Below, one piece after another: positions 1-8,243 of a stretch of 41,382 nt of DNA. The stretch lies in the NCBI GenBank assembly GCA_031291685.1, contig JARLIP010000141.1:1-41382 (forward strand). Direction: 5' to 3'. Within the stretch, counting starts at the first letter, position 1. Each line of letters starts with the position of its first letter. Below the pieces are notes generated by a model, which was not told the DNA's origin, did no database searches, and saw only the letters and a list, made by a program, of their open reading frames with translations. Source of the stretch: Caulobacteraceae bacterium. GTDB taxonomy: Bacteria; Pseudomonadota; Alphaproteobacteria; Caulobacterales; Caulobacteraceae. Made by a program: the position numbers and the translations under genes.

Positions 1-2002
1 GACCAGGATCTTGCCGTTGTCGCCGATCACCGCCAGGTGGTCACCGCTGGCCTCAAGGGAAATCGCAGCCTCGCCATTGAGCACCTGCTTGCCCGCACGG
101 CGGTAGGCTATGGCGTCGTCCTCGGGCAGGATGAAGCCATAGCCCGGCCTTGGAGGCGATCACCCGCTTGCGGCCGGGCTTGTGGGCGAAGACGTCGTTG
201 ATGGCGACCTTGTCGTCCAGGTCCAGCATCAGCCGCAGGGGTTCGCCATGGCCCCGGGCCGAGGGAAGCTTGTCGCAGGTCAGGGTGAAGAAGCGGCCGT
301 CCGAGGCGAAAATCAGCAGCTTGTCCGTGGTTTCCGCCGGAACCAGGAAGCCCAGCTTGTCGCCTTCCTTGAACTTCAGCTCGGAAGGATCGTCCACCCG
401 CCCCTTGGCGGCGCGGATCCAACCGCGCTCCGACAAGATCACGGTGATCGGCTCCCGGGGGATCATCGCCTCGATGGCGCTGGCCGCGTCGATCTGCGGG
501 GCGTCGGCGAAGGTCGAGCGGCGCTTGCCGACCTTGGTGTCCGGGCCCAGGATCTTGCGCACCTTCAGCAGATCTTCTCCGACCCGCTTCCATTGCCGGC
601 TTTCCGAGTTCAGCAGGGCGTTCAGACCGTCCCGCTCCTCGGACAGTTCGGCGTGCTCCCGGCGCAGCTCCATCTCTTCCAGCTTGGCCAATTGGCGCAG
701 GCGGGTGTTGAGGATGGCGTCGGCCTGGACGTCGCTGAGGGCGAAGGCCGAGATCAGCTTGGCCTTCGGCTCGTCCTCGTAACGGACGATGCGGATCACC
801 TCGTCCAGATTGAGGAAGGCGATCAGCATCCCATCCAGGATGTGCAGGCGCTGTTCGATCTTGGCCAGACGGAAGCGCGAGCGGCGGATCAGGACGTCGC
901 GTCGGTGAGCCAGGAAGGCCAGCAGCGCGCCCTTCAGGCCCATCACCCCCGGGGCGCCCCGGGCGTCCAGCACGTTCATATTGACCGGGAAGCGGTTTTC
1001 CAGGGCGGAGAGCTTGAACAGGCTCTCCATCAGGACCTCGGCCGGAATGGTGCGGGTCTTGGGCTCGATGATCACCCGCACGTCCTCGGCGGATTCGTCA
1101 CGAACGTCCCCCAGCAGGGGCGCCTTCTTGTTTTCGATCAGGTCGGCCAGCTGCTCGATCAAATCGGCCTTCTTCACCTGATAGGGGATCTCGGTGACGA
1201 TGATCCGATAGGTTCCTCTGCCCAGATCCTCCTGGGTCCAGGTGGCCCGCACCCGCACCCCGCCCCGGCCGGTCTCATAGGTCTCCAGCAGGGAGGCCGC
1301 GGGCTCGACGATCACCCCGCCCGTGGGGAAATCGGGACCGCCGACCACCTTCATCAGGTCGGCCGTGGTCGCCTCGGGCTTTTCCAGCAGGATCATGCAG
1401 GCCGCGATCAGCTCGCCCACATTGTGCGGGGGGATCGAGGTGGCCATGCCCACGGCGATACCGGAGGAGCCGTTGGCCAGAAGATTGGGAAAGCCCGCCG
1501 GAAGAACGACCGGCTCTTCTTCCTCGCCGTCATAGGTGGCGCGGAAATCGACCGCATCCTCGTCAATGCCGTCCAGCAGCAGGGCCGCCGCCTCGGTCAT
1601 GCGGCATTCCGTGTACCGCATGGCGGCGGCGTTATCGCCGTCGATATTGCCGAAGTTCCCCTGGCCGTCGATCAGGGTGTAGCGCTGGGCGAAATCCTGA
1701 GCCAGGCGCACCAGGGCGTCATAGACGGCGGTGTCGCCATGGGGGTGATACTTACCGATCACGTCGCCGACCACCCGGGCGCACTTCTTGGCCGTGGTCG
1801 CCGGGTCCAGGCGCAGTTGGCGCATGGCGAACAGCAGGCGCCGGTGGACTGGCTTCAGGCCGTCGCGGACATCCGGCAGGGCGCGGGAGGTGATGGTCGA
1901 AAGCGCATAGGCCAGATAGCGCCGGGACAGGGCCTCGGTCAGGGGCTCGTCGACGATCCGGTCGCCGTCGCCGCCATCGGACGGAGTGAAGGGCTTGGTC
2001 AT
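1..2002 (-). CDS. parC: DNA topoisomerase IV subunit A (ParC), truncated by window edge; frameshifted near 143-145
   Basis: ORF 53..2002 has GyrA/ParC motifs ([50 protein letters not shown]). The C-terminal frame is lost after VIASKAG; removing one G restores [49 protein letters not shown], open to position 1. Confidence 0.93.
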
Positions 2003-7367: not shown

Positions 7368-7511
7368 ATGCCCTCTGGGCTCGACATCGCCAAAACGCCG
7401 CTCGCGGGCCACACGGCCCAGCGTCTGGCGTCGCTCGCCCTGAAAACCATGACCGCGATGATGATTACCACCATTCCCATGACAGGAACGGGGCTCACGC
7501 GCGCGCCATAG
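7368..7511 (+). CDS. Leader peptide ORF with Thr/Met/Ile-rich C-terminus (47 aa; minimal alternative start at 7449 gives 20 aa)
   Basis: MPSGLDIAKTPLAGHTAQRLASLALKTMTAMMITTIPMTGTGLTRAP*; SD-like GAGGA 8 nt upstream of ATG 7368; followed by a terminator. The last 20 residues contain 6 Thr, 4 Met, 2 Ile. Confidence 0.6.
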   Translation: MPSGLDIAKTPLAGHTAQRLASLALKTMTAMMITTIPMTGTGLTRAP

Positions 7512-7540
7512 GCCGCCGGACAGATCGAAGGATCTCTTAG

Positions 7541-7569
7541 CCCCGCTCCTCACCGGACGCGGGGTTTTT
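7541..7569 (+). terminator. Intrinsic terminator acting as candidate attenuator
   Basis: CCCCGC (7541-7546) pairs with GCGGGG (7559-7564), followed by TTTTT (7565-7569). 5' arm alternatively pairs with CGGGGCT at 7489-7495 in the leader ORF. Confidence 0.75.
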
Positions 7570-7613
7570 GCTGTTTGGCCTGCCCCTCCACCACACCCCT
7601 CAGGACCCCACCG

Positions 7614-7700
7614 ATGAAAATGATCCGCTCCATTCGTCCCACCCTCGGCAAAACCTCCGCCTCGTCCGTCTCCAACTTCAGGAACGCTTCCCATGCTTGA
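7614..7700 (+). CDS. Short ORF (28 aa), possible second leader or coupling ORF
   Basis: MKMIRSIRPTLGKTSASSVSNFRNASHA*; AGGA at 7602-7605, 8 nt before ATG; its stop overlaps the start of the next CDS (ATGCTTGA). Confidence 0.4.
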   Translation: MKMIRSIRPTLGKTSASSVSNFRNASHA

Positions 7701-7986
7701 CGCTCAACAAACCGCCGCCCCCGTCGCGCCCGTTCGCGACGAGGTTCACGTGCTCCTGATCGCCGCCCGCTCCAGCCGCGCGGCCCTTCTGGCCGTCGAG
7801 GACGCCCTGGGCGCCAGCGACGCCGAACTGTGCCGCCTGAACCTCAAGCCCGTTGGCGAGATCGTCGAGGCCACCGTCAAGCTGCGCGGCATCGACGCCG
7901 GCGCCGCGGACCGACTGGCCGCCCGCGTCGGGGCGCAGCTTGGGGTATGCAATGCCCGGGTTGAGCACCTCTGGGGGCTCAAATGA
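7693..7986 (+). CDS. Small protein with ACT-like (ferredoxin-like fold) domain
   Basis: 97 aa; EVHVLLIAARSSRAALLAVEDALGASDAELCRLNLKPVGEIVEATVKLRGIDAGAADRLAARVGAQLGVCNARVEHLW reads as beta-alpha-beta-beta-alpha-beta; SD AGGAA upstream. Family call is by eye. Confidence 0.55.
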   Translation: MLDAQQTAAPVAPVRDEVHVLLIAARSSRAALLAVEDALGASDAELCRLNLKPVGEIVEATVKLRGIDAGAADRLAARVGAQLGVCNARVEHLWGLK

Positions 7987-8243
7987 CGCCCACATCGGAG
8001 GTTCAGCGCACCTTCCTGATCGAGATTCAGGACGAGGCGGAGGCCGTGCTCAGGGTTCTTGGCGCCTTTGCCCTGGGCGGTGCGCGCCTGACCGGTCTGG
8101 ACTTGCGGCCTCAGGCGGACAACGGCCTGCGCCTGCAGGTCACCGCCGCCAACCTGGACGAACCGCGCAGCGCCTCCATCGCCCAGCGATTGGGTGCGCT
8201 GCCGATCGTGCGGGCGGTTTCATTCGGATGGCGCTCCACCTGA
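7983..8243 (+). CDS. Small ACT-domain protein, acetolactate synthase small-subunit (IlvM/IlvN)-like
   Basis: 86 aa; RTFLIEIQDEAEAVLRVLGAFALGGARLTGLDLRPQ...LQVTAANL...IAQRLGALPIVRAVSF parallels the IlvN/IlvM ACT pattern; ATGA overlap with the upstream CDS. Confidence 0.6.
   Translation: MTPTSEVQRTFLIEIQDEAEAVLRVLGAFALGGARLTGLDLRPQADNGLRLQVTAANLDEPRSASIAQRLGALPIVRAVSFGWRST

Follow-up and report, generated by a model that had tools for sequence, protein, structure and literature searches.

A pair of predicted stand-alone ACT-like proteins behind a putative isoleucine/threonine attenuator in Caulobacter and related genera

The small subunits of AHAS, namely IlvM (from E. coli AHAS II) and IlvN/IlvH, each have one short ACT domain, some 87-97 aa long, and substitutions G14D and N29H in IlvH affect valine sensitivity. 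Attenuators of the thr/ilv type are characterized by tandem control codons in a leader peptide and by competing antiterminator and terminator structures, whereas the C-terminal regulatory domain of IlvA (PF00585) is an ACT-like module of the isoleucine branch. AHAS II (IlvGM) is the valine-resistant isozyme, the valine site being located on the small subunits IlvN and IlvH (PMC8406616), and the ilvBN genes of C. crescentus are governed by a ribosome-mediated attenuator (PMC4117421).

The cassette described here consists of a leader followed by two small genes, P1 and P2, and lies in a window of 41,382 nucleotides, i.e., the whole stretch of Caulobacteraceae DNA that was analysed (contig 19 of an assembly in 361 contigs, 81% complete; Table 1). 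Both proteins have the size of AHAS small subunits; P2 aligns to the ACT domain of IlvN/IlvH and, like IlvM, is preceded by a leader-attenuator and lacks the ligand-loop Gly and Asn. Unlike IlvM, IlvN and IlvH, to whose E. coli versions its identity is just 14-24%, P2 stands beside a catalytic subunit in none of the neighbourhoods examined, and is paired with a second ACT protein (P1) or with a protein similar to the beta domain (ASB) of L-serine dehydratase (P1b). The leader shares the anatomy of thr/ilv attenuators; unlike these, it would control small regulatory proteins only and no enzyme, it displays Ile and Thr codons without Val or Leu codons, and it corresponds to no Rfam family. Unlike the PF00585 domain, P1 and P2 are separate genes unmatched by the Pfam model, which has no match anywhere in the window genome. 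No description of the pair was found in the openly accessible literature (subscription journals lay outside the search), and an attenuator governing only stand-alone regulatory domains was found neither there nor in Rfam. Thus, in agreement with the suspicion raised in a preliminary description of this DNA, the two-gene unit conserved in Caulobacter and its relatives is apparently undescribed; ACT subunits and attenuators are known, and what would be new is an attenuator that governs regulatory domains free of any enzyme.

Table 1. Coordinates of the leader elements and genes of the cassette in the window, and of the related locus in a sister family.
Feature	Position	Strand	Remarks
Leader peptide ORF MTAMMITTIPMTGTGLTRAP, 20 aa	7449..7511	+	Ile/Thr control codons ATT ACC ACC ATT
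Antiterminator arm GGAACGGGGCT, inside the leader	7485..7495	+	Complementary to the terminator 5' arm, shuffle p=0.008
Small conserved hairpin GATC-GAAG-GATC	7523..7534	+	5' of the terminator
Intrinsic terminator CCCCGC...GCGGGG TTTTT	7541..7569	+	Covariance model R1
Short upstream ORF, 28 aa	7614..7700	+	Stop overlaps the P1 start
P1	7693..7986	+	97 aa, predicted stand-alone ACT-like protein
P2	7983..8243	+	86 aa, predicted stand-alone IlvN/IlvM-type ACT protein, without ligand-loop Gly
Lipoprotein-like ORF, 139 aa	8316-8735	+	Starts 72 bases past P2
P2-like gene and ilvA in G730 (sister family)	L246 4740-6770		Overlapping; Ile/Thr leader 5'

The two overlapping reading frames first noticed in the window proved real: their ATGA junction (7983-7986) is common to both genes, and they are kept as a pair in relatives. 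In another genome of the same genus (G004), P1 and P2 are respectively 72% and 62% identical to the window copies, with an identical overlap. Synonymous change exceeded non-synonymous change in every P1 and P2 pair tested, with pN/pS of 0.51-0.53 between the window and G004, and of 0.16-0.27 in closer pairs.

As single sequences, P1 and P2 from the window matched no Pfam family, and their searches against Pfam, NCBIfam and PDB gave nothing useful; the link to ACT families was established because family profiles, rather than the single window sequences, do match. AlphaFold models built with aligned relatives displayed the beta-alpha-beta-beta-alpha-beta arrangement of ACT domains in both P1 (pLDDT 84, pTM 0.69) and P2 (pLDDT 88, pTM 0.78), a non-ACT fold being predicted for neither. 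The best Foldseek matches of P2 were the ACT domains of RelA, IlvN (5ypp), homoserine dehydrogenase and IlvH, and those of P1 were ACT or ACT-like domains (MgtC C-terminal, NikR, RelA, SerA/Ser33). Both proteins are therefore predicted to be divergent ACT folds, as had been proposed, and comparison of their family profiles (hhalign E=2e-10) indicates that they are homologous to each other. The P2 profile detects IlvN of the same genome with E of about 1e-5 to 5e-8, its strongest non-cassette matches in genome-wide searches adjoin ilvB where checked and are hence IlvN, and its best PDB sequence match is E. coli IlvH (E=0.0028). Profile comparison thus points to a likeness of the second protein to IlvN/IlvM, the ACT domain of IlvN being the nearest relative of P2 within the same genome; P1 had no match to the IlvN/ACT_5 family.

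The ligand-loop Gly had been reported as absent from the first protein, which is correct, but the absence is not limited to P1. At the position equivalent to Gly14 of IlvH, P2 proteins carry Asp (37), Ala (3) or Glu (1, in the window), and Gly in none of 41; at the equivalent of Asn29 most have Arg, and again none of the 41 has Asn. P1 also lacks both residues, which are kept in IlvN proteins of the same family (8/8). The corresponding residues of E. coli IlvM are Glu and His, and the ligand loop of P2 thus resembles that of the valine-resistant IlvM. In view of the missing canonical IlvN/IlvH ligand residues, P1 and P2 seem unlike canonical amino-acid sensors, and sensing would be placed in the leader. 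The idea of an amino-acid-sensing cassette is therefore better applied to the leader and its Ile/Thr codons, and is unsupported for the proteins.

The leader was characterized with R1, a covariance model derived from six leader sequences, which matches the window at 7445-7577 with 116.9 bits; equivalent leaders were found at 26 other loci. Ile and Thr represent 32% of residues in the 27 leader peptides (155 vs 51 +/- 6 in shuffles), with Val and Leu depleted, and ATT is used for 49/57 of the leader Ile codons vs 29/289 in window genes (254 ATC and 29 ATT). Complementarity of the antiterminator to the terminator reached p<0.05 in 19/33 leaders, matched changes occur on both sides of the pairing (e.g., L069), and the antiterminator, on the leader side, competes with the terminator 3' arm for the same bases, i.e., the two structures are mutually exclusive. 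Since the folding energy of the whole leader is unremarkable (z=-0.93), the case for attenuation is a comparative one; on that footing, the evidence for a ribosome-mediated attenuator upstream of P1 and P2, as first proposed, is convincing.

Among 200 sampled genomes of the family, 56 P2 loci were identified, and matching the table of these loci with that of R1 matches placed an R1 element upstream of 55 of them, the remaining locus being truncated by a contig end. The cassette is present in Caulobacter, including C. vibrioides, and in further genera of the same family, at sites that differ: in Caulobacter it lies 3' of rpmI-rplT-pheS-pheT, in the window between pyrE and spoT, and in other genera elsewhere. 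No ilvB, ilvG, thrA or other amino-acid biosynthetic enzyme is adjacent in about 26 P2 neighbourhoods. Across these comparisons the leader and the two small genes travel as one unit, and this constancy amid varied neighbourhoods constitutes evidence against a remnant of an ilvGM operon. That the cassette might be such a remnant, a small subunit left from a lost ilvG or ilvB with its old attenuator and little function, would fit an IlvM-like P2 and a leader of the ilv/thr type; with two genes conserved and under purifying selection, the leader kept in several genera and differing neighbourhoods, and none of the loci examined having ilvB or ilvG alongside, we consider it improbable. The P2 profile detected relatives in one sister genus when searched over the order, and the P1 profile a single distant gene outside the family when searched over the class (L147). 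The latter is a lone P1-like gene (1492-1881, minus strand) of a distant alphaproteobacterium, located beside an MFS-type transporter.

The neighbours of the cassette in the window include pyrE (divergent) and pdxJ, both on the other strand of the upstream side, the 139-aa ORF and, on the opposite strand, a RelA/SpoT gene; the original remark that no amino-acid enzyme is adjacent is hence accurate. The position of the RelA/SpoT gene, together with the RelA ACT domains 3ibw and 6lxg among the top Foldseek matches of P2, might suggest that P1 and P2 act on SpoT/RelA. This is very improbable, because synteny with spoT is not kept in relatives, and a fold match of this kind is common to ACT domains in general.

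Genomes bearing P2 generally encode a single homoserine dehydrogenase, about 430 aa long, and, at the threshold used, at most one AHAS large subunit, which is adjoined by IlvN in the loci examined. The IlvA copies of the family match a single-C-terminal-domain model nearly end to end, and neither homoserine dehydrogenase, IlvB nor threonine deaminase displays an obvious missing regulatory part. A specific enzyme missing its regulatory part was considered as the partner and rejected, as the presence of homoserine dehydrogenase, IlvA or AHAS is uncorrelated with P2 across the 200 genomes. An aspartokinase-homoserine dehydrogenase fusion of 581 aa with no Pfam ACT domain was also observed (L111 5310-7055; L113 4886-6631), with a Thr-rich leader 5' and a thrB-like gene 3'; it was discarded as a partner, since P2 is missing from the genera carrying this fusion (g3 and, assigned by ORF length, probably g15).

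The most telling neighbour was observed in G730, a genome of the sister family, where the gene of a P2 relative (102 aa) runs into the start of the gene for a biosynthetic threonine deaminase (ilvA_2Cterm, 531 aa); an Ile-Ile-Thr leader, which reads ...ATIITVPRDGNNAR, lies upstream. R1 matches only the hairpin there, and therefore the likeness of this leader is one of anatomy rather than of model. The overlap points to a tie between the P2 family and the isoleucine branch. P1 and P2 could then be trans regulators of threonine deaminase, providing a second layer of control when Ile or Thr is scarce, which would suit an enzyme branch with Thr as substrate and Ile as product, as well as a window genome without a PF00585-type domain. 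Nevertheless, the G730 enzyme carries its own two-copy regulatory domain, the IlvA proteins of the family appear complete, and, given that ilvM and ilvA belong to one operon in E. coli, the G730 neighbourhood is equally compatible with AHAS and does not by itself separate the two. We thus regard a dedicated regulator of IlvA as possible but rather unlikely.

The explanation we favour, with a probability of roughly 0.4, is that the cassette is an enzyme-free regulatory operon induced by starvation, whose products would serve the isoleucine branch in trans, as regulatory subunits insensitive to ligand. Under a shortage of charged tRNA-Ile or tRNA-Thr, a ribosome would stall at the control codons of the leader, an action for which the anatomy is in place; the antiterminator GGAACGGGGCT would then be free to pair with the terminator 5' arm, allowing read-through into P1 and P2. 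P1 would probably associate with P2, or either of them with some other ACT domain, and, as both lack the IlvN ligand residues, they would probably not respond to ligand. Most likely they would replace or override IlvN on the single AHAS or, otherwise, act on threonine deaminase, so that isoleucine synthesis could continue while valine inhibits the sole AHAS, a role comparable to that of the valine-resistant IlvGM in enteric bacteria. Several observations weigh against this explanation: none of homoserine dehydrogenase, IlvA and IlvB tracks P2 across genomes, P1b resembles the serine dehydratase beta domain and not AHAS, certain loci hold P1 alone or P1b alone, the P2-like proteins of the sister family retain the ligand-loop Gly, and induction by Thr and Ile shortage is compatible with several enzymes. 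If the favoured explanation is true, an extra layer would exist between attenuation and allostery, in which what starvation induces is not an enzyme but a regulatory subunit, and Caulobacter-like bacteria, whose only AHAS is presumably inhibited by valine, would escape isoleucine starvation without a second isozyme. The idea is directly testable, as C. vibrioides, a model amenable to genetics, has the cassette.

Many genomes carry P1b, of about 100 aa, in place of P1 as the first gene (L017, L059, L060, L056, L065, L068, L101, L106, L107 and others). P1b matches PDB entries 2iaf, 2iqq and 4rqo with E down to 5e-8 and the N-terminus of SdaA from the same family with hhalign E=6e-12, and is by these matches a divergent homologue of the ASB domain of L-serine dehydratase. 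Unlike the domain in that enzyme, it stands alone, behind leaders of branched-chain amino acid type and without the flanking loops: by inspection, it starts past the SSSHT loop of SdaA and stops short of the GGGF loop. In L106 and L107 (Caulobacter), a Val/Ile leader and P1b lie directly 5' of ilvE (branched-chain aminotransferase), an arrangement that speaks for the favoured explanation; some loci have the leader and P1b without P2, and two genomes have the leader and P1 without P2. P1-like ACT genes also lie directly 5' of metY, which encodes O-acetylhomoserine sulfhydrylase, in two genomes of one genus (L019 1441-1686; L021 7168-7426). The ASB homology of P1b and the metY neighbourhood could be read as pointing to control of serine/threonine breakdown, or of some other enzyme of the aspartate family (SdaA, SerA, homoserine dehydrogenase or MetY), all the more as Bacillus-type serine dehydratase beta chains and type-1 SerA contain ASB fused to ACT. 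With both SdaA loops missing from P1b, P1 and P2 closest to IlvN, and no adjacency to SdaA or SerA seen, this seems unlikely. A broader reading, which we regard as doubtful, is that the cassettes represent a family of ligand-blind decoys, ACT domains like IlvN and ASB domains like serine dehydratase beta, that have lost their effector-binding residues and are produced only upon Ile/Thr starvation; acting in trans, such stand-alone copies of regulatory domains would take the place of the subunits that sense feedback, so that allosteric inhibition is overridden.

An ORF of 28-31 aa separates the terminator from P1 in five genomes of two genera, namely the window and L014, L018, L057 and L058, which hold its only equivalents. 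It ends just beyond the P1 start in all five, which makes translational coupling to P1 possible; conservation of the window ORF at the protein level is little or none. Judged by eye, these ORFs are rich in Ile, Thr and Met. The 139-aa ORF downstream of P2 matched no NCBIfam family, and comparison of gene calls gave it no counterpart at the cassette loci of relatives. Near the cassette of G010, the Rfam CC2171 sRNA (RF01867) was located at L010 2121-2283, on the minus strand.
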